Assembly: GCF_033958435.1 (NCBI RefSeq)
Contig: NC_134158.1
Location: forward strand, 4,731,837-4,795,836
Source of the DNA: Carettochelys insculpta
Lineage: Eukaryota > Chordata > Testudines > Carettochelyidae
Reading direction: 5' to 3'
DNA: 64,000 nt
The notes beneath the pieces are model-generated. The model was not told the origin of the DNA and made no database searches. It saw only the letters and a list, made by a program, of their open reading frames with translations. Position 1 is the stretch's first letter; each line of letters starts with the position of its first letter. Positions 4,186 through 50,708 of this stretch are shown piece after piece. Position numbers and translations under genes: made by a program.

Positions 4186-4199
4186 TTGATGTGACTCTG

Positions 4200-22300: not shown

Positions 22301-25300
22301 AAGACATTCTCCCTACTGCGCACTCAGCTCCCCATGACAAGGCCCCAGGCCCCACCCATGGCCCTGACCAGCCCTTCCCCTGTCTTCCTACAGAGACAGA
22401 CACAAAGGGAGAGGCAGAAAATCGTGTGGGAATTCCAGCAGCTGCGGCAGTTCCTGGAGGAACAAGAGCGACTCCTGCTGGCCCGGCTGGAGAAGCTGGA
22501 GGAGGAGATTGTGAGGACCCAGAATGACAGTGTCAGTGAACTCTCTGCGCAGATTTCCCGTCTCAGTGAGCTGATGGGTGAGCTGGAGGGGAAGTGTCAG
22601 AAGCCAGCGAGTGAATTCCTGCAGGTGAGACTGAGGGAGACACAGAGACTCTGTGTGTGCCCCAGGGCTGGAGATCCCAGAGAAAAAAATAAGTTGTTGC
22701 TTTGCACCCACCAGCCACAGCTCCTCCACTTCTCCCTGCACGTCCTGCCTGCCACAGTCAGCTGTGGGGAGGAAAGGATCAGGTCCAGGGTGTGCTGGAG
22801 GGAGGGGATGGGCACAGGTGGGGAAGGGGAAGTGTGGGGGCAGGAAGAGGTGGGGCAAAGAGTGGCATTGCCGGAGGGGGTGGAGTGGGAGTGGGGTTCT
22901 GCATCCCCTGGGAGAAGTGGAAGCTGGTGCCTATGGCTACAAACATCCCAGCTCCCCTCACAGGGAAGGGAGGCTCCTGAATCATAAGCTCTGGGGTCCA
23001 GCAGTCTGAGGTCTTGAGTTACAGACACAGAGATATTAGAGATGGCAAAGCCCCATGAGCTCAGGGAATCCAAGGCCCTGGGGCCAGGGCAGGGCCCCTC
23101 TTCCCTAGATTTGCAAACTCCCTTCCCTGGGATCCCCTGTGCGTGTTGTGTGGGACTAAGATTCTTTTCTCTCCTTCCCTTGTAGGACGTCAGAAGCACC
23201 TTGAGCAGGTACGTGGCTCTCCGTCCCCCTCACACCTCTCAGTGTTGGGAAATATCTTGGAGGTGGTGTTACCACTGAATCTCCCCAGGACTCTATGGTG
23301 AGATGTTAGGGGAAGGTCCCATCTAAGCTACAAATTTCCCTGATCACCTCCAGCCTGAGGGTCTCACCCTTGCACAGACTTTCCAATTATCCCCTCAATG
23401 GCAAAGTCTGACCTCAAGTATTCCCTAGAGGTGTCACCTCCCTGGGGGACCGGCTGCCCCAGGACTATGAGGCTGGAACATCGGCTTGTCACTGCTGGGC
23501 ACTGGGTGAATTGGTGTCTGAGTCTAGTTCCTAGTGGGCAGATTTGTACAGCACTTCCACTGGCAGCATCCTGTCCCTCAGAGCCTGGAGGCCAAGGTGT
23601 GAATGGGCCATGGAGACGCAATTCCCCTTTTGTCCCCAGAGCTGGTCTCTCCAGGCCGTAGTTCTAGAATCTGAATGGGGCCTGCGAGGGGAATGTTGCA
23701 GGGCCCTGGGCTGTGCTGCACCTGCTCTCAGGCTGGGAGAGGCAGAGGGATTCTAACTCCCAGCCCCTCAGAGCAGCGACTCACTGGCAAGAACTGAAGA
23801 ACCGAGTCACTAAATTCTGATGTTGTTTCTGTCCAGGTGTGAGAAGGGGAAGTTCCAGCCGCCAGAGGAGATTTCCCCTGAACTGGAAGGACAAGTCAGT
23901 GGTTTCTCCATGAAAACTGTTGCTCTCTCCGAGACTCTGAGCAAGTTCAAAGGTACGTAGAAGAGATCTCGGAGGGCAAAGCGAGTTAAGCATCTGGAAC
24001 AGTGCCAAATGCCAAAGTCTCTGGTCAACTGGTTCACAATGAGGTTTGGCTTCTATTTAATTGTGGGGTGAGACTGGTACAAACTTGAGGTCCACCACTC
24101 AGGTTGATTAATTAAAAAACGTATTTGTTCCAAAAGGATGCTGTGCAGTTCCAGTTACCATCAGACACAGAGTGGCAGCCATGTTAGTCTGTATTCTAGC
24201 AATACTAAAAAGCAGTCTAGTCGCACTTTAAAGACTAACAAAATAATGTATTAGGTGATGAGCTTCTGTGCGACAGACCTACTTCTTCAGATCAGAGCCT
24301 TATGAGCACAGACTCAGTATATAAAGCACAGAGGTCCAAAAATTGTTATCAGCGTTGACAAATCAGAAAAATTGTTATCAAGGTTGGCAAATCAGAAGAG
24401 TAGAGGGACGGCAGAGGGTGTGATGTGGGGAAGTTAAGAGTTAAATAAAGCATCAAAGTATGTAAAAGAGTCCTTATAATGGGTCAGGTAATTGCTGTCC
24501 CTCTTCAAAACATGGGTTAATGTTTCAAATTTGAATATGAATGTTAGTTCTGAGCATTCTCTCTGTAGACACTTGTTAAAGTCCCTTTTCAATAGAACAC
24601 AAACTTTCAGGTCTTAAACAGGATGGCCCACTCCATTAAAGTGCTGGCTGACAGGTTTGTGTATTTGGAATTGTTTGATGTCTGTTCTATGTCCATTCAT
24701 TCTTTGTGGAAGAGTGTTTGCAGTCTGTCCTATATACAGGGTGTGTGGGCATTGTTGGCAGATGATGGCATATATGATGATAGTTGAGGGCCAGGAGAAT
24801 GTGTCCAGGATTCTGTAATTAACGTGGTTTGGTCCAGTGATGGTATCTTTGTCCAGAATAGCTATGTGGACAAAGTTGGCAACAGGGCTTGTTGCAAGGA
24901 AAAGTTCCAGGATTAGTATTATTGTGGTTTAGCCTGTGGTTGCTGGTGAGAATTCTCATAAGGTTGGGAGGTTGGCTATAGGAAAGAACAGGCCTGTCAC
25001 CTAGAGCCTTCTGGAGTGTGGCATCATGATTTAGGATAGGTTGTAGGGCTTTAATGATGCGTTGCAGTGGTTTGACTTGGGGGCTGCAGGTGATGACCAG
25101 TGATGTTCTGTTATTGGCTTTTTTGGGCCTGTCTTGGGGTAGTTGGCTTCTGGGTATTCGTCTGGCCCTGTTGATTTGTTTTTAAACTTCTCCTGGTGGG
25201 TAATTCAGGTCTATGAATGTTTGGCAGATTTTGGAGTTTTCGGTCTCTGTCAGTAGGATCAGAGCAGATGTGATTGTATCTCAGGGCTTGACTGTAAATG

Positions 25301-26659
25301 ATGGATTGTGTTGTGTTACCATTAGAGTGAGAAATGACAGAAACATGGAAAGAAATACTACCCATTTGCCTCCTCCTGCGGTATAGGCAGGCTGTGCTGC
25401 ATTTCCCCTGAGATGCTCTAACTATCCCTTACACTATCTACAATATTACGCACATCCTGTTTATATATTGACTAGCAGATTAATCCATCATTGCTTCGGT
25501 TCTTAAGTCAGTTGGGGCTGGTTTGAAAATGAAGGAAAAAGATTCACGCTTTATTGAAATGATTGTATTTTTCAAAATTACAGTGTTGTTTTGATTGTTA
25601 ATTTTTATGATGGATTTTTTTAAAAAAGGATTGTTAACATATTTCCATTAAATTTTTTAGTACAGAGGGGAACTTCACGATGTGTATATTTATTTTTTGT
25701 CACTATAAACTATTTCCATTCAGTTTTAACAAAAAAGGGCACCAGTTAATGTGGTTTCCAGTAACATTTTCTTTTAGTTTTCAAACCTTTCAGATTTAAG
25801 GTGTGGAGGAGGGGAGCTCTGCCAATGGTCACTGAGTTGGACCATCTGCTGGGGCTCCCAGTCTCTAGTCCCTCCCCAGGGAGAGGTGGGGGCAGGAGGG
25901 GAAAGATCCTGAGCCCCAGGTCTGGCCCAGCCGATCCTTTCACCCTGTCCCTGACCCGTCCCTGCCTGTGAGTGACTCTCCCCAGCCCTGGGCTGAGATC
26001 TCAGAGCTGTCGGGCACAGCCTGGGGGAAGGAGATTCCCTGAGTCACTCTCCAGCTGGGCCCGATTCTGTCACTGACCCCATCAAACCCTCCCCCAGGGC
26101 TGAGCTCTGCCCGTCACGCTCTGATTCTCTCTCCCCTGCAGCCAATGTGACTCTGGATCCAGACACCGCTCATCCCCACCTCGTCCTGTCTGAGGGTGGG
26201 AAAAGTGTGAGATGGGAACATACACGACAGCGCCTGCCCAACAACCCAGAGAGATTCGACGCTGAGCTCTGTGTGCTGGGCTGTGAGGGGTTCACCTCGG
26301 GGAGACATTGCTGGGAGGTGGAGGTGGGGGATGGGTTGTTCTGGGCTGTGGGGGTGGCCAGAGAATCTGTGAGGAGGAAGGGATGGATCAGCCTCAGCCC
26401 TGAGGGGGGGATCTGGGCTGTGGAGAAGTGGGATGGTCAGTTCCAGGCTCTCACCTCCCCTGAGACCCCCCTGACCCTTAGCCGGGCTCCCCGCAGGATC
26501 CGGGTGTGTCTGGACTGTGACCGGGGGCAGGTGACATTTATCGATGCTGGTGCCGAGGCCCCGATCTTCACTTTCCCGCCGGGCTCTGTCCCTGGGGGGA
26601 GAATCCGGCCCTGGCTGGGGGTGTGGCACCATAGCTCCCAGCTCCAACTGTGTCCCTGA
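19322..26659 (+). CDS. TRIM-family E3 ubiquitin ligase (RING-B-box-coiled coil-B30.2), complete six-exon gene
   Basis: Six exons join in frame to a 466-residue protein: 19322-19738, 21723-21818, 22394-22624, 23186-23208, 23837-23952 and 26142-26659. All introns are GT-AG, and exon sizes 417/96/231/23/116 are the class C-IV TRIM pattern. Exon 1 encodes a C3HC4 RING (Cys16, Cys19, Cys31, His33, Cys36, Cys39, Cys53, Cys56) and a B-box 2 (Cys95, His98, Cys106, Asp109, Cys114, Cys117, His123, His126). Exons 2-4 form the coiled coil. The last exon encodes PRY-SPRY (LDPDTAHPHLVLS, CWEVEV, RIRVCLDCDRG, stop after LQLCP). The family ligates ubiquitin through the RING and recognises targets through B30.2, often in innate immunity. 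It resembles the TRIM7/TRIM27/TRIM39 group, and I cannot choose between them. No defect seen. Intron 1 holds two DNA elements, and intron 5 a Penelope-like relic. Confidence 0.88.
20390..20668. mobile_element. Short inverted-repeat DNA element in TRIM intron 1
   Basis: The ends read ggctacgtctgctctta and gacccgtgtagacctgccc, the short inverted termini typical of the MITE-like elements in this window. The same element sits in intron 1 of the second TRIM copy (about 41765-42040), so it predates that duplication. Confidence 0.5.
20669..21083. mobile_element. Second MITE-like element in TRIM intron 1
   Basis: It starts aaggctgtgtccgcactgcag and ends accagtgtagacaagtcctaa. It is paired with 20390-20668, and the same tandem pair is present at 42041-42458. 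Confidence 0.5.
24160..25375 (-). mobile_element. Penelope-like element, decayed, antisense in TRIM intron 5
   Basis: Read on the minus strand, a frame near 25365-25260 gives IIYSQALRYNHICSDPTDRD, which fits the motif after the Penelope reverse transcriptase core. About 500 bp further, LYIGQT-like remnants (ccctgtatataggacagactgcaaacact) and KRMNGHRT/IDIKQFQIHKPVSQH-like sequence (degraded) mark the GIY-YIG endonuclease. The 3' tail (agaagtaggtctgtcgcac, ttaaagtgcgactagactgc) ends at about 24165. Several stops and frameshifts make it a dead copy. Confidence 0.6.
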
Positions 26660-26934
26660 AATCAGCCTCTCTAGCCTCAGTCTCAGTGGGGGGCTGGAGG
26701 GACCCCACTGAGCAGGGAACCAAACTCTCCACTCTGCCCCCAGGAACTGATGCCGGGAAATGAAAAAGGACAAAACACATCAGAATTGTCTTTCCTGCTT
26801 TATTTACTGGAAATACCTGACAGACCCCAGTGAGATCTTAGGACACAGATCGGTACAAATCGCATCCAGCTCCCCACCCCACCCTCTGGTGACCCTCATT
26901 AATTAATTGTGTCCTGCCCCTGCAGCGGCCTGGC

Positions 26935-27020
26935 TGTTAGTTCTGCCCCTGCCCAGCCCCACATCTGCCCCTCAGGGCCCCTCCTAAAGCCCCAGGGACA
27001 GGAGGGGGAGAGAGATGAGC
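26935..27020. repeat. Short repeat shared with 63160-63240 (inverted)
   Basis: The stretch gttagttctgcccctgcccagccccacatctg and its continuation to ggagagagatgag is the reverse complement of 63240-63160. Both lie 3' of a B30.2 end (26659 and 63051), so this is probably TRIM 3'-flank material that became rearranged. Confidence 0.5.
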
Positions 27021-27234
27021 CCCTCCAGCCCCAACAGCGAACAGACCAGCACGTCCCTGTGCTGAGGTGGGGCATTACTGGAGTGTAAAATGAACATGCA
27101 AAATATGATTGCAATCGCTCTTCTCTGCTTGTACCAAATCTTCTGCCAGCTAGGCCAAGGGAGGTGTCTGGTGATTCGCTGAATCTCTTTATTCGGCTCA
27201 GATGTTTGTATTATTGTTGTTACCCTTCTGCCGG

Positions 27235-28000
27235 AAGGAATTGGCAGCAACCAGGGCCGGGTTCAACATCGAGAGGTTCCTTTCATCCATCTCACACAGA
27301 ACCAGGTCAAGCCCCCAGCCAGTAGCCTGGGAATGTCACACACCCCTGGGGGCCTCGGAGAGGCAACGCTTCCCCCCTCGCAAGCACAAAGTCTGAGTGC
27401 AGAAATGGACTTTCAATAAAAGAGGCAGAAAAGTCAATTAGCATAAGCTTGGGAAAATCCCACACCCAGAGTTCATAACCAGTTCTCAAGTAACTGTCCC
27501 AGCTCAGATGCATTGAGCAGTGTCCTTGGCCTCTCAGGCTCTCCAGTCCAGTACTGTGACCAGCCAATCCACACACCCAACTTTCTCCCTACCCCCACTT
27601 CAAATGCCCCACTTACAACTTGGTCCAGTCCCTGTGGGCACTGACACCTCACGCTGATGCTTTCCCTCACGGAACCTGAGACAAGGCCACCTTTGCGCCC
27701 GTCCGGCGTTCTGCTTCCTCCTACCAGCCGTCCATGGGTCGTGCCTTCTGTCCATCCGCTGCTCCTCCTCCCGGCCACCCGCCAGTCCTGCCATACACTG
27801 CTCCTCCTACCAGCTGCTCGCCGGTCACACCATCCAGTGCCATGGTGGGTCTGGCCTGAGGCAAAACCCTGTAATTTCAGCACTTGGTGGCCTCAGCTGC
27901 CCCCCTGTAGTTTCAGCTCTGGATAGCCACCAAAGTGGAGTCTCACAAAAATACTCTTATGCAGCACTATCTTTTAACACAGGAGAGGACTACTCAGACC
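27235..28000 (-). mobile_element. LTR relic of the Gypsy-like family, minus strand
   Basis: The reverse complement matches blocks of the LTRs at 1-377 and 7105-7905 (cccagtagcctggga, cctcgcaagcacaaagtctgag) and further left-LTR material (gtttcagctctgg, aatttcagcacttgg). An AATAAA lies at 27415-27420 on the plus strand and could serve the TRIM gene as a distal polyadenylation signal, though this is uncertain. Confidence 0.4.
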
Positions 28001-28545
28001 AAACTTAGAGCTATAGGACCAAGGAATAGGTAGGGCCACGGCACTCAGCTACCTGGTTCAAACCATACGCCCCACCCCCTGCATATTTGCTTTATAATAT
28101 TTCAAACCAGGGAGCTCTGTGTAATCCATGTCTTTTGCAGTTATATCGACTGCCCTGCCCGCCCCCCCCAACGACTTGGAAAATTGGTGAGATTTCACAA
28201 TTCTCATACTGAGTGTTCGCATAAATTGTGATTCTACAACAATGTGTTTACAATAGACAAAATCTCATTGCTTCATTGATACCCATCACTCTTTGTTTGC
28301 CAGGTATCACATATGCACCCCTTTGCATTCTCATGCAAACAATCTCTGGGAGACACATTCCTCCCACCCTTCAGCAGCATTGAGTTCCTGCTGGCACATT
28401 CCTTCCAGAAATATTCAGAATAACGCCTCCATGCTGCAGGGAAAATAAGCAAAACTTATTCCCAAATAGTGTCTCCACACACAGTAGAGCCTCTTGTGGA
28501 TTAGAGTCCCTGAAAGCACAGCTTCCCGGGGCTCTAATCTGAAAT
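28001..28545. other. No feature recognised
   Basis: Anonymous sequence with no gene, RNA or repeat I can name. Confidence 0.4.
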
Positions 28546-28805
28546 ACCACGTCTACACAGCAAAGTTATTTCAGAATAAATATTCCATAGTAGCTCATTT
28601 TGAAATAGACCGTCGTCCTGTTTACACAGCCCCTAGTTTGGAATGGGCCCTGTTCTTCATGGAATGAGTTTGACCAAATTTGAAATAAGCCCTTCGCTAT
28701 TTCGAAATAATTTTGCAATAGTGGTTTTGCTGTGTAGACACTCGCAAAGTTATTTGGGAAGAGTGGCTGTTATTCCTCAATAAGTTTGCTGCGTAGACAC
28801 ACCCT
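28546..28805. mobile_element. Decayed MITE-like element
   Basis: Inverted ends acgtctacacagcaaagttattt and gtttgctgcgtagacacaccc enclose AT-rich sequence with internal short palindromes (tatttcgaaata). Confidence 0.5.
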
Positions 28806-29039
28806 CACTGACTGCAAACCTGGCCACCATGTTAAAGGGACACTGCCAATTTGAACGACAACAGGCTGGATTCTCATTCTCACCCAGGTCCCTTTATTTA
28901 CACCACTCTGGCATTGCCATCCCCGGTGGTTCAAAAGCCACAAATCAGGCCCAAAAACAATCATGAGAGATTTAGAAAAATAATGCTGTGAGGATTTTTT
29001 GTTATTCGTGTTCTGATTTTGAGGCTTGGAACTGGCACT

Positions 29040-30713
29040 ACAGTCACAAAGGTATTTGAATAGTATTTAGATTGTAGGTACATTATTATTTATAACACAT
29101 TCATAACACATCATTGCGGAGTTATTAACAGTGGTTTGTAACCTATCCTTTAAATCCACTTTGGTACCAAATGACTGGAAGACGGCCAATATAACACCAA
29201 TATTTAAAAAAGGCTCTAGAGGAGATCCTGGCAATTATAGACCAATAAGTTTAACATCAGTACCAGGCAAATTAGTAGAAACACTAGTAAAGAGTAAAAT
29301 TGCAAGGCACATAGAAGAGCACAAATTGTTGGGCAAAAGTCAGCATGGTTTCTGCAGAGGGAAGTCGTGTCTAACTAATCTATTAGAATTCTTTGAAGGG
29401 GTTAATAAACATGCGGACAAGGGGCACCCAGTGGACATAATATACCTAGATTTCCAGAAAGCCTTTGACACGGTCCCACACCAAAGGCTTTTATGTAAAT
29501 TAGGCGGTCATGGGATAGGAGGAAAGGTCCTTTCATGGATCGGGAATTGGTTAAAAGACAGAAAACAAAGGGTGGGAATAAATGGTAAATTTTCACAATG
29601 GAGGAGGGTAACTAGTGGTGTTCCCCAGGCGTCAGTCCTGGGACCAATCCTGTTCAACTTGTTCATCAATGATCTAGAAAATGAGGTAAGCAGTGAGGTG
29701 GCAAAGTTTGCAGATGACACCAAGTTGTTCAGGACAGTCAAAAGCAAAAGGGATTGTGAAGAACTACAAAAAGATCTCAGCAAACTGAGTGATTGGGCAG
29801 CAAAATGGCAAATGAAATTTAATGTGGGTAAGTGTAAGGTAATGCATGTTGGAAAAAATAACCCAAATTACACGTACTACATGATGGGGTCAAATTTAGC
29901 TACGACAGATCAGGAAAGGGATCTTGGAGTTATAGTGGATAGTTCTCTGAAGACATCCACGCAGTGTGCAGCGGCAGTTAGTAAGGCAAATAGGATGTTA
30001 GGAATTATTAAAAAAGGGATCGATAATAAGACAAAAGATATCCTACTTCCCCTATATAAAACTATGGTACGCCCACATCTCGAGTACTGCGTGCAGATGT
30101 GGTCTCCTCACCTCAAAAAAGATATATTGGCATTAGAAAAGGTTCAGAAAAGGGCGACTAAGATGATTAGGGGCTTGGAACGGGTCCGATATGGGGAGAG
30201 GCTAGAGAGACTGGGACTTTTCAGTTTGGAAAAAAGGCGATTGAGGGGCGATATGATAGAGGTATATAAAATCATGAATGGTGTGGAGAAAGTGAATATA
30301 GAAAAATTATTTACCTTTTCCCATAATACAAGAACTAGGGGACACCAAATGAAATTGATGGGTAGTAGGTTCAAAACTAATAAAAGGAAATTTTTCTTCA
30401 CACAGCGCACAGTCAACCTGTGGAACTCCTTGCCCGAGGAGGCTGTGAAGGCCAGGACTCTATTAGGGTTTAAAAAAGAGCTTGATAAATTTTTGCAGGT
30501 TAGGTCCATAAATGGCTATCAGCCAGGGATAAAGTATGGTGCCCTGGCCTTCAGAACAAAGGCAGGAGATGGATGGCAGGAGATAAATCACTTGATCATT
30601 GTCTTCTGTTCTCCTTCTCTGGGGCACCTGGCATTGGCCACCCTCGGCAGATGGGGTGCTGGGCTGGATGGACCTTTGGTCTGACCCAGTATGGCCATTC
30701 TTATGTTCTTATG
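29040..30713 (+). mobile_element. CR1 LINE, 5'-truncated, young
   Basis: The element spans a long uninterrupted reverse-transcriptase frame and ends in the CR1-type short 3' repeat (attcttatgttcttatg). The last part (29881-30713) is also the outermost piece of the palindrome's left arm, and its mate is 53862-53030 on the minus strand. At the 3' end the element is inserted into a PLE tail (gctacttgactac follows at once). The 5' edge near 29040 is uncertain. Confidence 0.85.
29131..30684 (+). CDS. CR1 ORF2 C-terminal part: reverse transcriptase (517 codons)
   Basis: An intact frame without stops encodes the reverse transcriptase of a CR1 non-LTR retrotransposon, which copies the element RNA into DNA at a nicked target. 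Visible are [14 protein letters not shown] (residues 15-28), NYRPISLTS (35-43), [10 protein letters not shown] (71-80), the catalytic-palm [10 protein letters not shown] (111-120), [11 protein letters not shown] (162-172) and the active-site FADD (193-196), followed by the CR1 C-terminal region ([32 protein letters not shown]) and the usual ending LDGPLV. The N-terminal endonuclease and ORF1 are missing, so it cannot move by itself. The lack of stops indicates recent insertion. ATG is simply the first in frame; translation of the full element would begin upstream. Confidence 0.85.
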
Positions 30714-30734
30714 CTACTTGACTACTTTTTGTTT

Positions 30735-31073
30735 TGGTTCTGCAGTCCATACAGGGTTAACAGCTCGATGGCGTCATCGCGCTGCAGCGAGGGGACAGGC
30801 TTCATGCAGATTATGTGATCACTTAGGCAGCGAAACAACCACCACAGAGGCAGCTCGCAGGTCTGGTGGAATAACTCGTTTTAAAGCTGAATTATCTGGT
30901 GGGAGAGGTTTTGCTTTGACCAGCTACAAAGGAGCTGCAGGATGAAGAAAGTAGGTGTACTTGCCGATCTGTAAAAATCTTGTTGCAAGGCTCACGTGTT
31001 GCATTCGGGTGACTCGTCGTGATGTGTAAAAGTGTCCAGATGGGTGGGCTGCGTAAAATTTTCACAAAATTGT
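30735..31073 (+). promoter_or_regulatory. U2 snRNA promoter, copy 4
   Basis: Octamer-like ATGCAGAT lies at 30804-30811, 270 bp upstream of the RNA start. A PSE-like gtgactcgtcgtgatgtgtaaaag at 31010-31032 ends 42 bp before it. The block begins right after the CR1-split PLE tail. Its mate in the right arm is 52670-53008. Confidence 0.7.
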
Positions 31074-31111
31074 ATCGCTTCTCGGCCTTTTGGCTAAGAT
31101 CAAGTGTAGTA

Positions 31112-31912
31112 GGACATACCATCGTCACCCCATCCGCCCGGACCCTGCTGGAGCGCTTGCTAAAGAGCACCATTCGCCACCAATATGCCGAGGCCCTGCG
31201 GAAGAAACCTGATCAGAGGAAGGTGTTTGACGTGACCAGCCACTGGGATGCCAGTAACCACTTCCTCCGGGCTGGCAACTTTACCCGTTTTGCGGACTGG
31301 CGCTTCATCCACCGAGCGCGCCTTAATTGCGTCCCGCTCAACGGCGCTGTCCGCCACGGGACCCGCGATAAAAGGTGCAGGCGTTGCGGATATCCGCTGG
31401 AGACTCTTCCCCACGTCCTCTGTGGCTGCATGGTGCATTCGGCGGCTTGGCAGCGCCGCCATAACGCCATCCAAGACCGGCTGGTGAAAGCGCTGCCTCC
31501 GACCCTTGGATCCGTTACCGTAGACTCTTCCATCCCTGGCACTGACAGCCTTCTGCGGCCGGACATCGTTGTGACGGACGAGCGGTCTAAGAAGATCCTC
31601 ATTGTGGACATTACGGTGCCCTCTGAGAACCGCATGGCGGCCTTCCGCGATGCCCGGGCCAAGAAACTGCAAAAGTATGCCCCGTTGGCGGACACCTTGC
31701 GGTCCCGGGGCTACTCGGTGGAGGTCCATGCGTTGCTCGTGGGGGCATTGGGTGCCTGGGACCCCCTGAATGATGAGGTCCTGGAAGCCTGCGAGGTCAG
31801 TCGCTATTATGCTCGAATGATGCGCAGGCTGATGGTGTCCGATGCCATTAGGTGGTCCAGGGACATCTACACAGAGCATATCACGGGCCATCGCCAATAT
31901 ACTGACAGCTGA
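31112..31912 (+). CDS. Utopia C-terminal protein: zinc knuckle and restriction-like endonuclease
   Basis: 266 uninterrupted codons end at the stop 31910-31912. Order: a linker (TLLERLLKSTIRHQYAEALR), a segment DASNHFLRAG...FTRFADWRF typical upstream of the knuckle, the Cys/His knuckle CRRCGYPLETLPHVLCGC, then the endonuclease motif RPDIVVTDERSKKILIVDIT (PD-x-D type active site) and a following K-x-x-KY (KKLQKY) stretch, ending in SDAIRWSRDIYTEHITG. In R2-like elements this nuclease nicks the genomic target for target-primed reverse transcription. The reverse transcriptase is lost by 5' truncation. The frame also stays open upstream through the U2 5' end to 31019, which I take as coincidental. 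Lack of stops fits a recent insertion. Confidence 0.85.
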   Translation, partial: GHTIVTPSARTLLERLLKSTIRHQYAEALRKKPDQRKVFDVTSHWDASNHFLRAGNFTRFADWRFIHRARLNCVPLNGAVRHGTRDKRCRRCGYPLETLPHVLCGCMVHSAAWQRRHNAIQDRLVKALPPTLGSVTVDSSIPGTDSLLRPDIVVTDERSKKILIVDITVPSENRMAAFRDARAKKLQKYAPLADTLRSRGYSVEVHALLVGALGAWDPLNDEVLEACEVSRYYARMMRRLMVSDAIRWSRDIYTEHITGHRQYTDS

Positions 31913-32104
31913 TTACCAAGCGCCTTTGTGTTTTCCTTTTTTCTCCTAATTTTATCTATTTTTTTTTTTAATTTTTTTTTTATTTTTTTTTCTCCTATTG
32001 TAATTTACTTATTTAATTATTATTATATTTTTTTTTCTTTTTTTTTTTTTTATTCTCCCTGGTACTTAATGGGTCGGGGAGTTTTATGTTCAAAGACTTG
32101 TTTT

Positions 32105-32310
32105 TTCTCAGGGACTGGCCGATAAGCCGATATTGTTTATTGTCTAGTATCTGTAAAATACTCCCCTTTTTGATTTTCCCCTAGGGATGGGGATGGATCC
32201 AAAGGCCAATATCTTATATTGTCTGCGACTTTGAAGTATTTTCCCCTTTTTCTTGTCAGGGTAGAGATTGGTTAAAAGGCCGATATTTTATATTATCTCT
32301 TGTTTGTAAC
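32105..32310 (+). repeat. Three tandem repeats in the Utopia 3' UTR
   Basis: Units carry gggactggccgataagccga, ggatccaaaggccaatatc and gattggttaaaaggccgat cores followed by tatattgtct-like and ttttcccc blocks. They are preceded by a 130-bp T-rich run. Confidence 0.7.
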
Positions 32311-32774
32311 TGTGTTTTGTTGTCTATCTGAGACTAGTTGGGTTTCTTATGTAAGTACTAAGATACTGTTTACTGTATATTACGCTCCATAACCTGTTCT
32401 AGTTTCTCAGATGATATATCCCTGTGTATGTGAATTTGTTAAGCTCCTTGCTGTATCTGAAACATTCCCTCATTAAAACTCATTTAATCTGTTCTTCTCA
32501 GTTTAATATCTGATACGTCCTCTATCTGAGGACTATATATTAAATGGTTTTTTGGAACAGGGAGATGGAATAGGAGCTTGCTCCATCCACTCCACGCATC
32601 GACCTGGTATTGCAGTACTTCCAGGAACGGTGCACCTCCCTTCGGGGGGCAATAGTCTTGGTAAAAAAATAGAATTCAACTTTAAAGGTGTTCTCTTTCT
32701 GAACCAAAAACAGAGTTCTTTGTATGTAAACTTGTTGTAAGAATCACTTATGCTTTTATGTTCAGGTTGGGTTT

Positions 32775-33176
32775 TTACTTGCCCAAAACTTTGAAATTAC
32801 CATAGAAATGATTATTATAAAAACTACTAAGAGAACACTGAAATACATATTTAGCATTTCTAAAAGCAGTTAAATGCATATTTAGCACCTCATTAGCAAG
32901 GGCAGGGTTTGGGCACTTTGGAATTGCGGCGTTGGTTTAGGTGGGGGTCTTTTCCAAAAGAACCCCGGCAACTTCGAAATCCCCTTATTCCTATCAGCAA
33001 ATTAAAATAAGGGGATTTCCACATCTGGACCAGCTGTGCAGCGCGAGCTGCTGCAATTTCCAAGTGCTGCCCCCCATCCGGCCCCCCCCCGCATTCTAAA
33101 GAGAGTCTCATTAGTAATCTTCAAAATGGCTATTTGCATGGACATTTTGAAGTTTTGGGCTAGTGTAGACAAAGCC
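32775..33176. mobile_element. Decayed fold-back DNA element, unit C
   Basis: Left part cttgcccaaaactttgaaatta, middle ccccttattcc / aataagggg, right end gctagtgtagacaaagcc. Mate in the right arm: about 51940-52342. Confidence 0.5.
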
Positions 33177-33179
33177 ACT

Positions 33180-33400
33180 TTGTTTTATGTGACTCTTGAT
33201 TTCTCCCCTTCCTACCGCTCTTCTGATGTGCCCACTTTGATTCCGATTTTTCTGATTAGTCAACCTTGATGACTAGTTTTGGTTGTCTGTGCCTTAAATA
33301 TTGAGTCTTATGGTCTGAAGACGTGGGTCTATTCCAGAAAAGCTCACCCCTTAATAAATTATTTTGTTAGCCTTCAAAATGCTAAGAGACTGCCCTTTTT
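33180..33400 (+). mobile_element. PLE 3' tail, unit C
   Basis: Same blocks as at 4200-4400 (tgtgccttaaatattgagtc, gtgggtctattccagaaaagc, ttaataaattattttgttagcc), ending in a T run at 33397-33413. Confidence 0.55.
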
Positions 33401-35100
33401 TTTTTTTTTTTGCAGAGAAAAGAATCCAAGTGTTTGTGAGAGGCAGGTCTGCTCTAGGTCAGCAGGCCTCCAGGGCTGGTGAAAGCAGAGGGCTGTAACT
33501 CCCTTTCATCAGCACTCCCATGAGAAAAATTGTTCCAGTCCCCCTGGTCAGACCTGGTTTGGTTAACCAATAAGAACAGATTGAAAGTTTTTGATTGTGC
33601 AGGTTTAAGACTAAGAGGAGATGCAACTGAAGACAGTTGGCAGTTTTTCCATGGGGCCTAAAAGGGCCTAAAAGCAAGCAAGCTGCACCCCTGTAGTCTA
33701 AAACTCTCTCAGTTCTGTGTAATGTTCACCTGTATCTGACATTGAATTCAGTGTGATGGTTTTGAAATTAACTTGCTGTTCAGTCTCAGTACTGATTGTA
33801 GCTGTGCTAATGAAAGCTCCTTGTTGTGTGAGTGAGAATGGATGCTGTATGTGTGCGAGACTGTCACCAGCTGTTCCAGGAAGCGATCAGGACAGACCCT
33901 TAGCGCTGCAGATCATTACAAGGCGAGCAGTGGGCAACTCTAGAGAAGGAGAGAGGCAGTGAGAAACAGTCCTCAGTCAGCAGTAGCAGGCTGGGCCAAT
34001 AGAAGACGAGCCTGTAGAGTGAGAGGGAAAAGGCGAGCAGTGGGCGCATTGCCACCTAGAAAGGCTGGCGCACTCTGGGATGAAGCGGGACTTTGCCCAC
34101 GAGAGCTTATGCTCCAGAATGTTAGTCTCTGAGGTGCCCCAGGACTTGTTGTTCTTATAGTGCACGGCAGGGCAGTCCCAAGGGGTTATTAACCCTGAGC
34201 AAAATGCAAGTCCCCTCTCTCATGCGCTCTGCTCCTGCTTGTCCCCCTCCCCGCCCCCACTCCCCCCAGCTGTTGGTCACCCCTTGGAAACAAGGCTGGG
34301 ATGTTGGCCCAGCTGGGTTGATGCTTCCTCTGTAAAACCCGGGCTCAGACTCAGCATTGCCGCTAACTTTTCCCAGGCACCTGTGAAATGAATTTGTTTC
34401 CTGCACCCCTCATGTGAAATGTGACAAGTCCCCTCCATATCAGTAGTCTGACAAAGCGTGGGGGGGAGGGGGAGGAGGCCTGGCGTGTGGGAGGGGGGCT
34501 CAGGGCTGGTGCAGAGGGTTGGGGGTGAGGGTGCTGCCTGGGCATGCGGGCTCTGGGGTGGAGCCAGGTCTAAAGGGCTTGGGGTGCTGGCTGGCCCCGG
34601 GCTACAGCAGAGAGGACCCCCCCAGCTCTCCCCCCAACACAGCCCCCAGGCTGAGGCAGGGGGAGGCGCCACATGGGGCTGGGCTGGGAGATCGGCATCC
34701 CTCCCCTGCCCTCAGTGGGTCTGGGACTGATGGGGGCTTCCCTGGGCTGGGGGGTTCCCCAGCTGCAGCAGGTCCCTGCCAGGCTGGGGCGCCTTTCCCC
34801 TGACCGCGGCAGGCTCGGGCCAGTTGGGTCCCGCAGCGCCCTGCTTGCAGGGGACGTCGCCCCAGGTGACTTCCGAGAGCAGCGTTCACCCCCAGCGGGG
34901 CTAAGCGGCGCCACGTCTCCCCCACCCCCGGGAGCAGCCCCAGCTCCTCGCCCCCACCAGGAGGCCCGGCCCCGGCACAGCCGAGCTCCCCGCACAGCGG
35001 CCAACGCCCCATTAGCTCAGCGCCCCAGAAGGGGCTGGCTGGGGAGCCCCGTTACTCCTGGAACAGCAGCCGGGTGAGGCAGGGCACATCCCCTTCGCGT
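33401..35100. repeat. U2-unit spacer copy C with GC-rich block
   Basis: Diverged copy of 4400-6120. It includes the SINE-like end near 34098-34160 and the CpG-dense block (about 34450-35080). The CTCF-like site and the longest GC-box run are missing because homology stops near 35098, where a short fold-back-type fragment (about 35115-35215) joins it to the Utopia-type element. Confidence 0.7.
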
Positions 35101-35236
35101 CCCTCTTCCTCAGGGTGTACGGGAGCTATTATTCCCCTCTGCTCATAGGCGTAAAGAGACTTTGAAGTAGGCAGGATCCTTTTGTAAAGGAGCCTCGTCT
35201 GGACGAACGCGTACCCGGTGTGGCGGGGGGGCATCA

Positions 35237-37016
35237 CCCGTGAGGTGCAGCATGGTCCAAGAATCAGAAGAGTGCATGAGGTAGTGGGTGCGACATTCCC
35301 CAACGTGGGGTCCATCTTTTCATTCCATGGTTGGCCAAGATGGAAGGGAAGTGGAACTTCAGCAATAGTTCAAAAGGTGGGTGGAAGCCAATGCTTCCAC
35401 TTAGCCCAGTCCTGTATCGTGTTCGTCATCTCGTCACGTGTCCTCGTTACCCATATTCCGTGTTGGCTGGGTCGTGGTCGATGAGTGGAAAGGGAACGAG
35501 GGAGGAATGCACTGCGAAGGGAGGCAGAGAGGAAAAGAAAAAAAGAAAAGGGAGGCTAGGGAAAGGGTAAAGAGATGGCTTCTCTCTGTGTAGTAGGGCC
35601 CGTTAGATGAGTTCTGGGTAGTTGGGCAGTTATTTGTCCTGATATTGGCGGAGGCCTGTAATATGCTCTGTGTAGACGTCCTGGGACCATCTGATGGCAT
35701 CTGACACCATTAGCTGTCGCGTGAGGCGGGCATAGTGGCGGCTGATGCCGCAGGCGTCGAGGACCATTTTGTTCTGGGGGTCCCAGGCCCCCAGGGCACC
35801 CACCAGCAGGGCATGTACCTCCACTTTGTAGCCCTGTGTCCTTAGCGGTGTGTATTTATCTAGCGTCTTTGCCCTTGCTTCCCGGAAGGCCACTGACAGG
35901 TTTTCGAAGGGGATGGAGACATCCACCATGGTGATCTTCTTTGCCTGCTCGTTAGTTATTACGATGTCTGGTCTGAGCAGGCTTTTGGTGTCCGGGATGA
36001 TGCAGTCCACTGTCACTCCACCCAGGGCTGCCGGGAGGGCCTCGATAAATCAATCTAGGGCTACGTCTACACGTGCACCCAACTTCGAAATAGCTTATTT
36101 CGATGTTGCGACACCGAAATAGGCTATTTCGATGAATAACGTCTACACGTCCTCCAGGGCTGGCAACGTCGATGTTCAACTTCGACGTTGCTCAGCCCAA
36201 CATCGAAATAGGCACAGCGAGGGAACGTCTACACGCCAAAGTAGCACACATCGAAATAAGGGAGCCAGGCACAGCTGCAGACAGGGTCACGGGGCGGACT
36301 CAACAGCAAGTCGCTCCCTTAAAGGGCCCCTCTCAGACACACTTTCATTAAACAGTGCAAGATACACAGAGCCAACAACTAGTTGCAGACCCTGTATATG
36401 CAGCACGGACCCCCAGCTGCAGCAGCAGCAGCCAGAAGCCCTGGGCTAAGGGCTGCTGCCCACGGTGACCACAGAGCCCCGCAAGGGCTGGAGAGAGAGT
36501 ATCTCTCAACCCCCCAGCTGATGGCCGCCATGGAGGACCCCGCTATTTCGATGTTGCGGGACGCGGATCGTCTACACGTCCCTACTTCGATGTTGAACGT
36601 CGAAGTAGGGCGCTATTCCCATCCCCTCATGGGGTTAGCGACTTCGACGTCTCGCCGCCTAACGTCGATTTCAACTTCGAAATAGCGCCCTACACGTGTA
36701 GACGTGACAGGCGCTATTTCGAAGTTACTGCCGCTACTTCGAAGTAGCGTGCACGTGTAGACGCAGCTTAGGATTGCGTTATGCTGTAGTTGCCAGGTCC
36801 TGGAGAGAACCAGACATCCACAGAGAACATAGCACAGAGTATCCTTAGAGTATCCACATCCTCTGTTACAGTTCCCATGCTGGATGGCTCTGTTGAGATA
36901 GATGCAGTTCAACCACACACAGTGCATAAAATACCATTGTGCAAAACAGATAAAGTTACTGGCCAACGAAAAAGTAGACCAAGATTACTGACACTTCATT
37001 TGCAGGTGATCTCAAA
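35237..37016 (-). mobile_element. Second Utopia-type element in U2 (left arm), carrying a 710-bp DNA element
   Basis: Mirror image of 48371-49440. It codes on the minus strand for the RLE domain (RPDIVITNEQAKKITMVDVS, VEVHALLVGALGAWDPQ, MVSDAIRWSQDVYTEHITG; 36016-35630). The frame is cut at 36058/36769 by the 710-bp element. Protein similarity to the 31-kb element is clear, but the nucleotide sequence and 3' UTR differ, so it is a separate family or an old subfamily. Confidence 0.7.
36059..36768 (+). mobile_element. 710-bp inverted-repeat DNA element, copy 2
   Basis: Flanked by TAG on both sides (36056-36058, 36769-36771). The right palindrome arm keeps the empty site with a single TAG (caatcTAGattg-type junction at about 48620-48626 read on the other strand: atcctagattga). 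Almost identical to copy 1. Confidence 0.92.
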
Positions 37017-37017
37017 T

Positions 37018-37034
37018 ACTACACTTGAGCTTGA
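37018..37034 (-). pseudogene. U2 snRNA remnant (nt ~22-37), left arm
   Basis: On the minus strand ggtcaagctcaagtgtagt matches U2 nucleotides 21-37 with few differences, then switches into the second Utopia-type element exactly after GTAGT. U2 nucleotides 1-20 are replaced by a low-complexity A/T stretch. Confidence 0.6.
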
Positions 37035-37422
37035 CCTTTCTTTCTTTTATTTATATTTTTAAAAAAAAACAAAAAGTGGGAGGGGTGACTTAATGCTATG
37101 AACATTTTACACAGCCCACCTGTCTGGACACTTTTGTATGTCATGACGACTAAAGCCAATGCATCACGTGAGCATTGCAACAAGATTTTCACAGATTGGC
37201 AAGTACACCGACGTTCTTCATCCTGCAGCTCCTTTCTAGCTGGTCAAAGCAAAACCTCTCCCACCAGATAATTCAGCTCTAAAACAAGTTATTCCACCAG
37301 ACCTGTGAGCTGCATCTGTGGTGGTTGTTTCTCTCCCGAAGCGATCAGCTAATCTGCATAAAGCCTGACCCCTCGCTGCAGCATGCTGATCCCATCGAGC
37401 TGTTAACCCTGTATGGACTGCA
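37035..37422 (-). promoter_or_regulatory. U2 snRNA promoter copy, left arm, minus strand
   Basis: Mirror of 47966-48349. It contains the PSE-like element (cttttgtatgtcatgacgac, about 37131-37150 as plus-strand reading) and the octamer-like ATCTGCAT near 37352. Confidence 0.6.
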
Positions 37423-37424
37423 GA

Positions 37425-37515
37425 ACCAAAACAAAAAGCAGTCAAGTAGCACTTTAAAGACTAGCAAAATAATTTATTCGGTGAGCTTTGGTGGGACAGA
37501 CCTACTTCTTCAGAC
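37425..37515 (-). mobile_element. PLE 3' tail, left arm
   Basis: Reverse complement of the standard tail: caaaacaaaaagcagtcaag, tagcactttaaagactagc, aaaataatttattcggtgagc, gggacagacctacttcttcag. Confidence 0.6.
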
Positions 37516-38345
37516 CATCAGACCACCGGACTGCAGAACCGGTGTCAACCACACACCTTGGCAGCCACCAAAAGTATTCAATCAGGCGCCAGCAAGGACA
37601 AAGAAGAGAAAAATCAGACTGGAGCAGAAAGGAGGAAGAAGAGCAGAATTCAGCCAGGCGTGTGGCAGGAGCAGGGAACCTTTGCGGGGCTGGAGGCCGC
37701 TGACTACAGAAAATGGTAGAGGCCTCAAGTGACAAGGAAACCACAAAGTAAAACAAAAAAGATACCGCAACGCAGCCCCAAATGATGAGAAAAAACCTGC
37801 ACAGACACGCCCCCCAAAGCAGCCTGGAGGGGGAAACAGCCCCCCCCTCCCCCCAAAGCCAACCTGCGGGCAATGCGGAGGCAGCTCCAGGGGGATAGCT
37901 CTGTGGAGCCTGCCCCCCACATCACCTGCCCCCCCAGAGTCTGCCCCTCCTTATACCGCCTACGCTCTGCAGGCAGCTGCTGTAGAGGGACAGCCTATCG
38001 GACCCTCACTCCCTGCCCACACAGCCCGCAGGGGAGCGGGAGCCCCATGGAGACTGGTGGGCAGCTCCCAGAGCCTGCCCCACCCCACAGCCTGCCCACC
38101 ATATGAAGGCCACAGGTGAGTTGGGGTAGCCCCAGAGTATCACCACCAGCTGGAGGAGGGGGCTGCAGAGAGAGGGCTGGAGCCCGGTTCTCCTTTCCCT
38201 TCCCCTGACAGCGAGTGTAGCAGAAAGGTGTGTTTGGTTAGTGTTGGTTTTGTGTATGAGGTACAGTTTCATGTCTGAGGACTTGCGTATAAATTCTGCA
38301 GTTTCTATTTCCCTCTGTGTCACTCAGGGTTAGATAGTACGTACT
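37516..38345. other. Unidentified sequence next to an LTR
   Basis: No gene can be named. A Pro-rich frame on the plus strand (PKPTCGQCGGSS, then PPESAPPYTAY) is faintly Gag-like and includes a PPY motif, but it is short and continuous with featureless sequence. Duplicated in the right arm (47039-47868). Confidence 0.35.
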
Positions 38346-39052
38346 GTAAGGCCTTGCTCCCTCCTAGCATTGCAGTTAAGTTGTATCCCTTGTCTGCATC
38401 ACAACTCAGTTGTGTCTATAGTAAGTAGAGGCCCAGTATGAGGCCTTAGGCCTGAACTAAAGTAATGGTCAAGCCTTTGCTAACAGAAAGCAAAGTGCAG
38501 CTGTGCGCTGAAGGGATGCATTGCTCACAGACGCTGGCATGAAGAGGGCTGATGGGGCATAAACAGAGCTACCCAGCATATTGAAGTATGAACATGGCAC
38601 CAGAACACCCGACCCTGGAACATTCCACAGAGAAGAAAGAACAGGCCGACCCATCCCAGTGACAGGGGCAGAAGGGTAACATGATGGATAGAGTTGTTTT
38701 GTTCGAACCAACATGTACAAGGTGAGAGGCGGCACCTGACTACGTACAAAGGGTTGTACCTCAGTACGTCAGGAGTGATGTGTGAATTGTTTGTACCTGT
38801 GTATAAGAATGTACTCCTGGGGTGTAGTCTGGGTCCGGCCAAGGGGGCAGTGGAAAGTCCTGCCACTGACTGAGCCGAGTCCGTTGACCGTGGGTGCATA
38901 TTTGTAGTATGCCCTGACTTAGACTAAGAAGTCTACAGGGAACTACTATTGTGTCCAATACGGCAATAAACCTGGCCGACGTGCCTTCGCACCTTACTAG
39001 ACTCTGTGGTCATTGGGGGTTCTCTTCGGGTCTGCTGTGTCGGCTATCTGCA
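38346..39052 (+). mobile_element. LTR-like sequence (707 bp), left arm
   Basis: Starts TGTAAGGCC and ends CTATCTGCA (TG...CA). It contains a TATA-like tgtataaga at about 38801 and AATAAA at 38964-38969 with a GT-rich stretch after it, the layout of a retroviral LTR. Mate in right arm: 47038-46332. The boundaries are inferred from the ends only. Confidence 0.45.
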
Positions 39053-39150
39053 GAGCTGGGGCAGCGCACAGAGGGAACACGCGCACGCAGCCGAGTGATA
39101 CCAACACTAGAGAGAGCAGAGCAGCACGCTGGTAGCATCTGACAACAGAG

Positions 39151-39353
39151 GTGATCAAAAACAAGTTGAGCCGCTTGTCACAGCTGCAAGATAGTCTTAT
39201 TCAAAAGCAGGTGCATGCCAATATGGATCTGGTCCAAATAGGTTCGGGAAACTTGAAAGCTAGATGGAAAGTGTGGCAGTGGCTGAACTCTATCACCTGG
39301 TTGCTAAACAAGAAAGAGATGGAATTAGGAAATAAAACTGCCCTGATGACTGG
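39151..39353 (+). pseudogene. Possible retroviral Env-like fragment, left arm
   Basis: An open frame (KNKLSRLSQLQDSLIQKQVH, then ARWKVWQWLNSITWLL) shows heptad-like Leu/Gln spacing and a Trp-rich stretch reminiscent of retroviral transmembrane-subunit ectodomains. It lies 100 bp after the LTR-like sequence. The frame is cut by a 710-bp element here; in the right arm it continues to 45924. I am not sure of this. Confidence 0.25.
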
Positions 39354-40063
39354 AGCTGCGTCTACACGTGCACGCTACTTCGAAGTAGCGGCAGTAACTT
39401 CGAAATAGCGTCCGTCGCGGCTACACGTGTTGGGCGCTATTTCGAAGTTGAAATTGACATTAGGCGGCGAGACGTCGAAGTCGCTAACCCCATGAGGGGA
39501 TCGGAATAGCGCCCTACTTCGACGTTCAACATCGAAGTAGGGACGTGTAGACGATCCGCGTCCCGCAACATCGAAATAGCGGGGTCCTCCATGGCGGCCA
39601 TCAGCTGGGGGGTTGAGAGATACTCTCTCTCCAGCCCTTGCGGGGCTCTGTGGTCACCATGTGCAGCAGCCCTTAGCCCAGGGCTTCTGGCTGCTGCTGC
39701 TGCAGCTGGGGGTCCGTGCTGCATATACAGGGTCTGCAACTAGTTGTTGGCTCTGTGTATCTTGCACTGTTTAATGAAAGTGTGTCTGGGAGGGGCCCTT
39801 TAAGGGAGCGACTTGCTGTTGAGTCCGCCCCGTGACCCTGTCTGCAGCTGTGCCTGGCTCCCTTATTTCTCTGTGTGCTACTTTGGCATGTAGACGTTCC
39901 CTCGCAGCGCCTATTTCGATGTTGGGCTGAGCAACGTCGAAGTTGAACATCGACGTTGCCGGCCCTGGAGGACGTGTAGACGTTATTCATCGAAATAGGC
40001 TATTTCGATGTCGCTACTTCGAAATTAGCTATTTCGATGTAGCGTACACGCGTAGACGTAGCC
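39354..40063 (-). mobile_element. 710-bp inverted-repeat DNA element, copy 3
   Basis: Same element in the opposite orientation. Flanks are TGG (39351-39353) and ACG (40064-40066); the right arm has gactgggtgtactg uninterrupted at about 46030-46043 (other strand). Arm-length bookkeeping (about 713 bp) supports a 3-bp target duplication, although its right copy has changed. Confidence 0.9.
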
Positions 40064-40657
40064 ACGGTGTACTGAAATGCAGATTCTCAGCTTAGTGACG
40101 CTGGAAGGTGAAATGTATTGGGTGTTATCTGGGAATGTTAAGGTTTTAGCGCATCTCCTGAAACAACACCTATAAATATGATGGATACAATACGTCTCCA
40201 GCATGGTTAAACCTGATTTACAATTTGGTGAAATTGTTGTTAAAATTGTTCCCCAGCAGTCTGTGGAGACAGACCTGGGGAAGGTAGTAACCCCTGTCAT
40301 TGTCATCTAGGATGAGCTGTAAATCCCTGAAGAAGTGCTGGAGAGATTTTAGCTGTGGGCTGTACGTGGGGGTCTGTGGTTCTCTTTGATGGATCTGTCC
40401 AGTAGCAGGTGACGTCTTACACACACAGACCCAACTAGCTCCTGAAAGCTCCTTGGGACAAGTGGATGCTCATGTGCCTGTGAAGCCTCAGTGACCCTCC
40501 ACATCAGGACCAGAGCCCTAGTGGCACGTTTTTCACCAAAGCCTCCAGGGCGGAATTGTTACCACTGGCACCTTCCAATTCAGCAAACAACCGAGTCAGT
40601 TCCAGGAAGGGAAAAACACCCAGCACTTGCTGAAGGTGGGGTACAGTGTGAGCTCAG

Positions 40658-40669
40658 GAAAGGGAAACT
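40658..40669 (+). promoter_or_regulatory. ISRE match upstream of TRIM copy 2
   Basis: GAAAGGGAAACT is a perfect match to GAAANNGAAACT, 28 bp before the ATG, at the same place as the one-mismatch site of the intact TRIM gene. Confidence 0.4.
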
Positions 40670-40697
40670 CACCCTGTTCCCCAGCCCAGAGGGAGCC

Positions 40698-45090: not shown

Positions 45091-45401
45091 AGTTTCAGAG
45101 CCTCCTGGTGCTCCCCACACACCCCGTCCCCTCCTGCTCCCTTAGCTGCCTGCAAACTCAGCCGTTTGACGAGTTCTGCCATGTTTGCCAGCTGCCTGTT
45201 GGGCCGGAGGTGTCTCTGTTGCACAGGTTTTCTGCACTGAGGGCAGGAGGCGGTTGGGTTGGGTCCCTCCCAGCACTGGCTGATGCAGGCTCGGCAGAAG
45301 TTGTGCCCACACTCCAGAGTGACCGGGGCTGTGAAATACTCCAGACAGACGGGACATGTGGCTTCTTCCTGGAGACTTTCCAGGGGGCTCCCTGCAGCCA
45401 T
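45091..45401 (-). pseudogene. Third TRIM exon-1 copy, truncated at the palindrome edge
   Basis: From ATG at 45401 the minus strand encodes the RING and the first B-box residues (VCGEHQEALKL). At 45091 the homology ends and the frame runs on through unrelated sequence (PLVEISSSEVIYMSL...) to 44973. It is nearly identical to the 40.7-kb copy. The break point of the inverted duplication is therefore inside this exon. Confidence 0.75.
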
Positions 45402-45923
45402 GGCTCCCTCTGGGCTGGGGAACAGGGTGAGTTTCCCTTTCCTGAGCTCACACTGTACCCCACCTTCAGCAAGTGCTGGGTGTTTTTCCCTTCCTGGAAC
45501 TGACTCGGTTGTTTGCTGAATTGGAAGGTGCCAGTGGTAACAATCCCGCCCTGGAGGCTTTGGTGAAAAACGTGCCACTAGGGCTCTGGTCCTGATGTGG
45601 AGGGTCACTGAGGCTTCACAGGCACATGAGCATCCACTTGTCCCAAGGAGCTTTCAGGAGCTAGTTGGGTCTGTGTGTGTAAGACGTCACCTGCTACTGG
45701 ACAGATCCATCAAAGAGAACCACAGACCCCCATGCACAGCCCCCAGCTAAAATCTCTCCAGCACTTCTTCAGGGATTTACAGCTCATCCTAGATGACAAT
45801 GACAGGGATTACTACCTTCCCCAGGTCTGTCTCCACAGACTGCTGGGGAACAATTTTAACAACAATTTCACCAAATTGTAAATCAGGTTTAACCATGCTG
45901 GAGACGTATTGTATCCATCATAT

Positions 45924-46235
45924 TTATAGGTGTTGTTTCAGGAGATGCGCTAAAACCTTAACATTCCCAGATAACACCCAATACATTTCACCTTCCAGCG
46001 TCACTAAGCTGAGAATCTGCATTTCAGTACACCCAGTCACCAGGGCAGTTTTATTTCCTAATTCCATCTCTTTCTTGTTTAGCAACCAGGTGATAGAGTT
46101 CAGCCACTGCCACACTTTCCATCTAGCTTTCAAGTTTCCCGAACCTATTTGGACCAGATCCATATTGGCATGCACCTGCTTTTGAATAAGACTATCTTGC
46201 AGCTGTGACAAGCGGCTCAACTTGTTTTTGATCAC
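45924..46235 (-). pseudogene. Possible retroviral Env-like fragment, right arm (uninterrupted)
   Basis: Same frame as 39151-39353, here 103 codons because the 710-bp element is absent. It has heptad-like spacing and a Trp-rich core. Assignment is weak. Confidence 0.25.
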
Positions 46236-46331
46236 CTCTGTTGTCAGATGCTACCAGCGTGCTGCTCTGCTCTCTCTAGTGTTGGTATCACTCGGCTGCG
46301 TGCACGTGTTCCCTCTGCGCTGCCCCAGCTC

Positions 46332-50266: not shown

Positions 50267-50269
50267 GAG

Positions 50270-50705: not shown

Positions 50706-50708
50706 GAG

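Follow-up and report, generated by a model that had tools for sequence, protein, structure and literature searches.

The closest systems described so far are the reptile Utopia retrotransposons and the R2 elements of ribosomal RNA genes. Kojima and Jurka (2015) describe only a small number of reptile Utopia copies flanked by U2 small nuclear RNA (snRNA) gene sequence, and they report 20-bp target duplications for the reptile Utopia families (PMC4640811). Their paper also raises the question of how a parasite can persist when its insertions break an RNA gene that is essential and low in copy number (PMC4640811). The turtle Pelodiscus sinensis is among the hosts in which Utopia has been reported (PMC4640811). 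For R2, duplications of the upstream target are described when its RNA keeps upstream 28S sequence (PMC3774820), and R2-like proteins without a Myb domain have been classed as Utopia (PMC13188248). What is added here, from the genome of the pig-nosed turtle, Carettochelys insculpta, is a reciprocal pair of empty and filled sites, exchange between units, a high occupancy of the U2 cluster and the absence of the reported 20-bp duplication.

By the window we mean the whole stretch of 64,000 nucleotides that was analysed. It contains a palindrome with a U2 gene in each arm, one of them interrupted by a truncated Utopia and the other unbroken. Its features are the following, with coordinates counted from the first letter of the window.

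31074–31111, plus strand: 5' piece (nt 1–38) of the U2 snRNA gene in the left arm, from the match to the U2 model and the junction comparison.
31112–32486, plus strand: 5'-truncated Utopia element, matching positions 3900–5257 of a 5,257-bp copy on contig C12.
31112–31912, plus strand: open reading frame for the end of the Utopia protein (266 C-terminal codons and the stop), which includes its CCHC finger and restriction-like endonuclease.
31913–32486, plus strand: Utopia 3' untranslated region, whose last letters, ATTAAAACTCATTTA, stand directly ahead of U2 nt 38/39.
32487–32640, plus strand: 3' piece of the U2 snRNA gene (nt 38 to the end).
52479–52669, minus strand: unbroken U2 gene of the right palindrome arm, the natural empty site.
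29880–41008, plus strand: left palindrome arm, with the Utopia and two 710-bp foldback insertions.
45091–53863, minus strand: right palindrome arm, with one 436-bp foldback insertion.
1229–1522, plus strand: older 5'-truncated Utopia in another U2 gene, whose 5' piece ends near 1217 and whose 3' piece starts from 1523.
2124–3380, plus strand: older Utopia copy with a non-U2 5' flank and, from 3381, a U2 3' piece behind it.
8299–8492, plus strand: unbroken U2 gene of a variant class, marked by an insertion of 3 nt in the first stem-loop.

A first-pass annotation had placed the element exactly inside the left-arm U2 gene, with U2 resuming at 32487, and both junctions agree with it. U2 nt 1–38 end at 31111 and U2 restarts at 32487/32488; a single A (U2 nt 38) can be assigned to either side, which gives an element of 1,375 bp with a 1-bp duplication or one of 1,376 bp with none. 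The same annotation took the U2 gene of the opposite arm (52669–52479, minus strand) for an unbroken copy of the same gene, and rightly so: this gene scores 192.6 bits against the U2 model, the best of the five matches in the window, and the rejoined left flanks (191 nt) are identical to it at 187 of 191 positions, with 4 differences. Its further proposal of essentially no target-site duplication or deletion is right for the window copy and describes the commonest state in the genome as well. As for the sums of paired arm coordinates, they change from 83743 ahead of the insertion to 85119/85117 past it, a shift of 1,376, or of 1,374 past a 2-bp gap. The claimed shift at the site is thus real, but the arms are not otherwise alike nearby, as had been said: the sums change again at 34407, where the right arm has 436 bp more, and at 36059 and 39354, where the left arm has 710 bp more in each case. 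All three extras are foldback elements. The homology between the arms ends outward at 29880/53863.

Some other repeats of the window can be recorded here. The foldback elements have ends like GGCTGCGTCTACACGTGC...CGTGTAGACACAGCC and are found at 36059–36768, 39354–40063 and 17277–17986 (710 bp) and at 50270–50705 (436 bp). An older remnant of Utopia, a 193-bp fragment about 78% identical, is present in both arms (35642–35834 and 48841–49033) and in the left arm is inverted relative to the main copy. At 63522–63743 there is a GC-rich minisatellite with a 69-bp period and 3.2 copies.

Two units related to that of the window are found on the same chromosome. We call the window unit W and the related ones D and X, with L and R for left and right arm (WL, WR, DL, DR, XL, XR). 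Unit D, 170 kb upstream, runs collinear with window 1–52632 at 99.4–99.7% identity but has no counterpart of the 710-bp foldback element at 36059; as this element is missing from D too, the element is younger than the W/D duplication. DL carries the same truncated Utopia at the same point as WL, so that the left insertion predates that duplication. DR is not empty, and its Utopia is a different one, the short copy also found in XR. Unit X is the mirror case of the window, with the left arm empty (an unbroken U2 gene starting at C22:4657847) and the right arm filled by a Utopia of about 190 bp. In XR, 198 bp separate the two nt-38 positions: U2 runs on as far as nt 44, which duplicates 7 bp, and is followed by T-rich sequence and about the last 172 element positions. 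When X is taken as the outgroup, the empty state is ancestral: the 1,375-bp copy was gained on the WL/DL branch and the short one on that of XR, two gains without any loss.

The presence of one short copy in two units is explained by the alignment of the six arms. At ten sites from 30085 to 33049, XL, XR and DR agree with one another and differ from WL, DL and WR, whereas beyond 33394 DR is W-like; moreover, D and X do not differ at all from C22:4612223 outward over 5.4 kb, where the compared stretch ends, and are about 2% different inward. These three observations indicate that a segment moved from X to D. As the alignment has it, DR is an X/W recombinant that got the X insertion through non-allelic exchange. 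In the same alignment, nine outer sites separate WL and DL from the other four arms, WR, DR, XR and XL. Outside U2, DR keeps matching the window left arm for 6.7 kb (window 24414–31111 against C22:4613.3–4620.0 kb) and WR stops at 53863; the right arm of W seems, from this comparison, to have been cut short or rearranged at that point.

We think it very probable that these arms record one course of events. The Utopia restriction-like endonuclease would have cut the U2 snRNA gene after nt 38 in the left arm of a U2 palindrome that already existed, the right arm remaining empty. The cut bottom strand would have primed reverse transcription from the 3' end of the RNA, as is established for R2, and reverse transcription would have halted 1,375 nt in. 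The cDNA would then have been joined to a top strand cut at about the same position, the observed junctions having nothing lost or duplicated. Unit W would subsequently have been duplicated to give unit D, the sister unit X would have gained a shorter Utopia in its right arm independently, and the X right-arm segment would later have replaced the matching segment of DR by non-allelic exchange. That the insertion followed the inverted duplication had already been proposed for the window, and units D and X now give support to this order.

Some observations count against such a course. The nine derived changes on the WL/DL branch face two private WR ones in the same 1.2 kb, which is an uneven split. 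In the coding part of the element (31112–31906), 8 of 795 positions distinguish WL from DL although their flanks are only about 0.1% different, possibly because of CpG decay. Gene conversion inside Utopia between WL and DL was considered for these differences and rejected: six of the eight are peculiar to either WL or DL, the other two recur in some further copies, and no donor pattern appears among nine copies. Finally, private WR changes are clustered at 32629–32674 and could mark a short conversion tract beside the site. A conversion donor for this cluster was sought among 22 other U2 rows aligned with WR, of which 21 are usable and one, L071, reaches the upstream part alone. The variant U2 class shares two of the private WR states, but none of these rows carries the entire cluster, and a donor among them was rejected.

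The cluster is one of the reasons for weighing the reverse order, in which the insertion would be older than the palindrome and the right arm would have lost its Utopia by gene conversion from an empty U2 gene. We consider it improbable. Exchange is active at the locus, as the recombinant DR demonstrates, and the private WR changes lie just 3' of the site. In addition, another inverted pair of U2 genes, about 9 kb apart (L083 at C22:1143 kb and L084 at C22:1152 kb), has the same truncated Utopia in both copies, which suggests for that pair an order of events opposite to that of the window. However, given the empty outgroup arm XL and the different insertion in XR, this order would take at least one loss as well as a new gain, and none of the 21 usable rows is a matching donor.

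We give even less probability to the view that the assembly process produced the empty right arm or the duplicated units. The region is highly repetitive, and D and X share those 5.4 kb without a difference. Nevertheless, the Carettochelys insculpta assembly was obtained from HiFi and Hi-C data with hifiasm and has a contig N50 of 126 Mb (PMC10960847), so that the palindrome was probably resolved by long reads. The substitutions are also consistently arm-specific (27 LL|RR sites, 0 W|D and 0 crossed in the four-arm alignment), the empty WR arm has substitutions of its own, and unit X offers a second pair of empty and filled arms.

The nature of the element can be read from its protein. The window frame holds the last 266 codons, open to a stop at 31910–31912, with a CCHC finger and a PD...D endonuclease motif that can be aligned with R2 proteins (E=9e-14 against the R2 protein in PDB entry 9nl2). 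The reverse transcriptase (RT) domain is absent from the window copy through 5' truncation. In the C12 copy this domain is present (Pfam RVT_1, E=2.4e-31), and the frame that bears it matches the same PDB protein at E=1.7e-77. A Utopia protein is expected to have one to three N-terminal zinc fingers and to lack a Myb domain. Two C2H2-like motifs can be seen by eye in the C12 frame, where the Pfam zinc-finger matches are weak (best zf-C2H2_4, E=0.009, below the cut-off). Pfam detected no Myb domain in the C12 frames, an absence that is weak evidence when it comes from Pfam, and its scan of the two C12 frames listed no apurinic/apyrimidinic-like endonuclease domain. Rfam matched no ribozyme in 551 bases towards the 5' end of the C12 copy, but one may still be present there.

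In the protein search, among the matches listed (best 120 of 387), the named turtle matches have 58–68% identity and the named ant matches 47–49%. A tree was made of 25 proteins, the C12 copy and 24 chosen by hand from those best 120 of 387, and in it the partner of the C12 copy is Pelodiscus sinensis (96/95), both within a clade of turtles (100/100); no row of this tree is labelled Utopia, so membership of the clade is indirect. Seven copies whose endonuclease frame is open were compared in pairs; of the 21 uncorrected nonsynonymous-to-synonymous ratios, 20 are 0.18–0.60 and one is 0.98, with few changes each, as expected of a lineage whose source copies were under selection. The earlier assignment to a Utopia-type element holds, given the 3' junction in U2 together with the R2-type RT and the CCHC/restriction-like endonuclease. 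Judged on these sequence features, the window copy is a dead, 5'-truncated Utopia, a non-LTR retrotransposon of the R2 superfamily and a kind of element already known. It is scarcely credible that it should be another U2-targeting element, Keno, or an R2 with a changed target: the 3' site of Keno is identical (PMC4640811) and the tree has no labelled Utopia proteins, but the Keno endonuclease is of the apurinic type, whereas the C-terminal CCHC finger and PD...D motif here align with R2 proteins, a Myb domain was undetected in the C12 frames (the feature by which R2-like proteins are classed as Utopia in PMC13188248) and the target is U2, not 28S.

The window copy has many relatives in the genome. 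The 25-nt 3' end of the element has 87 matches at up to 3 mismatches, with 0 for the reversed control, and the element 3' end followed by U2 from nt 38 on (32 nt, up to 3 mismatches) has 58; the reversed pattern has 0 here too, which excludes chance. These 58 U2 junctions are distributed as 49 on C22 (chromosome 22), 4 on C27, 3 on C2 and 1 each on C12 and C3. The claim that reptiles have few U2-linked copies, taken over from the 2015 paper, does not fit this genome, with 49 of its 58 junctions in one cluster. Comparison of the two lists by hand assigns a U2 tail at that threshold to 52 of the 87 ends and none to the other 35, among them C27:3055065, whose 3' flank is not readable.

Unbroken U2 nt 25–58 has 50 matches in the genome, 32 of them in C22:0.75–5.54 Mb. 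In the cluster on chromosome 22, 49 U2 sites are interrupted and 32 are not, an occupancy of 60% of 81, where the numbers are of copies and not of events, as many were made by duplication of whole units. Three of the unbroken genes (near C22:1952, 1974 and 4037 kb) adjoin a Utopia with the U2 3' half or its duplicate. Among 20 unbroken loci inspected, 11 belong to the variant U2 class with the 3-nt insertion in the first stem-loop (for instance L065, L069, L072, L073 and window 8299–8492). This insertion was considered as a Utopia footprint and rejected, for it marks a second class of U2 gene and is present in unbroken genes. At C22:4871053–4897174 there is a regular tandem array of five U2 genes about 6.5 kb apart, unbroken at the tested site. 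Among the titles listed in searches of the open-access literature, none dealt with Utopia occupancy in a turtle U2 cluster.

The upstream joints were compared at 23 loci with a U2 5' half plus the L021 group. By our own grouping according to truncation point, in which L017 and L027/L028 (positions 4036–4039) are taken as one, these amount to 18 distinct insertion events, 16 on C22 and 2 on C27. Omitted were the loci that have no U2 as 5' flank or whose 5' flank was not reached (window 2124, L025, L045/L053, L046/L055, L047/L054, L092, L093, L094, L098 and L100). At L020, L089, L096/L097, L099 and L102 the local alignment overran into the element, and the end was set by eye where unbroken U2 sequence stops. 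In 10 of the 18 events the U2 part ends at nt 36–40, three of these with filler. There are deletions of about 14, 6 and 4–7 nt in 3 events and duplications in 2, of 7 nt (XR/DR) and of about 220 bp (the L021 group, with an intact U2 gene left upstream); 3 events are too degenerate for placing. A 20-bp target-site duplication was found in none of the 15 placeable events. Two composite arrangements were also seen: L095 (C22:2018 kb) has two truncated Utopia copies in tandem in one U2 gene, and L035 (C11:16.64 Mb) is a head-to-tail Utopia, in which the 3' end is followed by AT and then by the 5' start of another copy.

Utopia is also found outside the U2 genes. Of the 35 ends that lack a U2 tail we inspected 15, and one of these runs into another Utopia. 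Directly past the element, 10 of the remaining 14 agree with U2 nt 39–44 at 5 or more of the 6 positions (background frequency 0.6%), so the same target is sought outside the cluster as well. At C31, for example, the flanks are AAGTGTACT and ATCTATTCC, to be compared with AAGTGTAGT and ATCTGTTCT in U2. Poor matches to the U2 target are seen at L031, L033, L041 and L032. Short dispersed U2 fragments that have no Utopia, within about nt 21–67, occur at L080 (C1:148.4 Mb), L077 (C6) and L079 (C21); they look like small retrocopies of U2 and would serve as Utopia targets. L080 is flanked by the repeat TTAATGTCATGC, which overlaps the U2-like TTTAAT.

Five dispersed copies have U2 on both sides. 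U2 extends from nt 1 to about nt 100 around the C12 copy, from nt 2 to nt 63 at C2:200 Mb, from nt 9 to about nt 104 at C2:136 Mb, from nt 13 to nt 98 at C2:128 Mb and from nt 14 to nt 129 at C3:164 Mb. Co-retrotransposition of U2-Utopia-U2 transcripts was rejected as their origin, since the junction at C2:136 Mb, the one tested, occurs once in the genome, so that no source copy was found. We prefer insertion into dispersed U2 fragments, because unbroken fragments exist as ready targets; it explains four of the five, and C12 needs an extra U2 leader. The C12 locus, bounded by the 12-bp direct repeat TTTGTTGGTTAT, consists in order of an 11-nt piece, U2 nt 21–39, U2 nt 1–39 starting exactly at nt 1, and the full-length element, which seems to lie in a dispersed U2 fragment. 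The simplest reading of these pieces is that the template RNA brought U2 nt 1–39, that is, began at the U2 start site. The upstream-target duplications of R2, seen where its RNA retains 28S leader sequence, are comparable (PMC3774820). From this one locus we draw a tentative idea, possible but in our view open to real doubt, that the Utopia template RNA may be the U2 transcript itself, from U2 nt 1 (the cap site) and with no 5' end of its own. The U2 1–38 leader in the cDNA would then pair with the target U2, and full-length insertions would obtain a precise 5' junction free of duplication.

The question of how such a parasite persists (PMC4640811) now has a worked case on one chromosome of one turtle, where 49 of 81 sites are interrupted by many distinct insertions at one nucleotide. 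Two reciprocal pairs of empty and filled arms have a readable order, and one insertion has spread by exchange between units. As the exact sequences before and after insertion are at hand, the joints can be seen without guesswork, and they do not fit a 20-bp duplication as a rule for all reptiles.

Compared with the reptile Utopia described in PMC4640811, the likeness lies in an RLE-encoding (restriction-like endonuclease) non-LTR element, the 3' junction at U2 nt 38/39, turtle hosts and U2-like targets outside U2 genes; the differences are the 58 U2 junctions, the 49 of 81 cluster sites interrupted and the 20-bp duplication in 0 of 15 placeable events. Keno shares the 3' insertion site in U2 and differs in its type of endonuclease, which is apurinic (PMC4640811). 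With R2 of the 28S rRNA genes the element has in common an R2-type RT, a CCHC finger, the RLE and a multicopy RNA gene as home, as well as 5' junctions with microhomology or filler and an upstream target sometimes duplicated at the 5' end (PMC3774820). It differs from R2 in its target, which is U2 (the window copy and 58 junctions) and not the R2 site in 28S, and in that no Rfam ribozyme match near the 5' end of the C12 copy and no Myb domain were detected.
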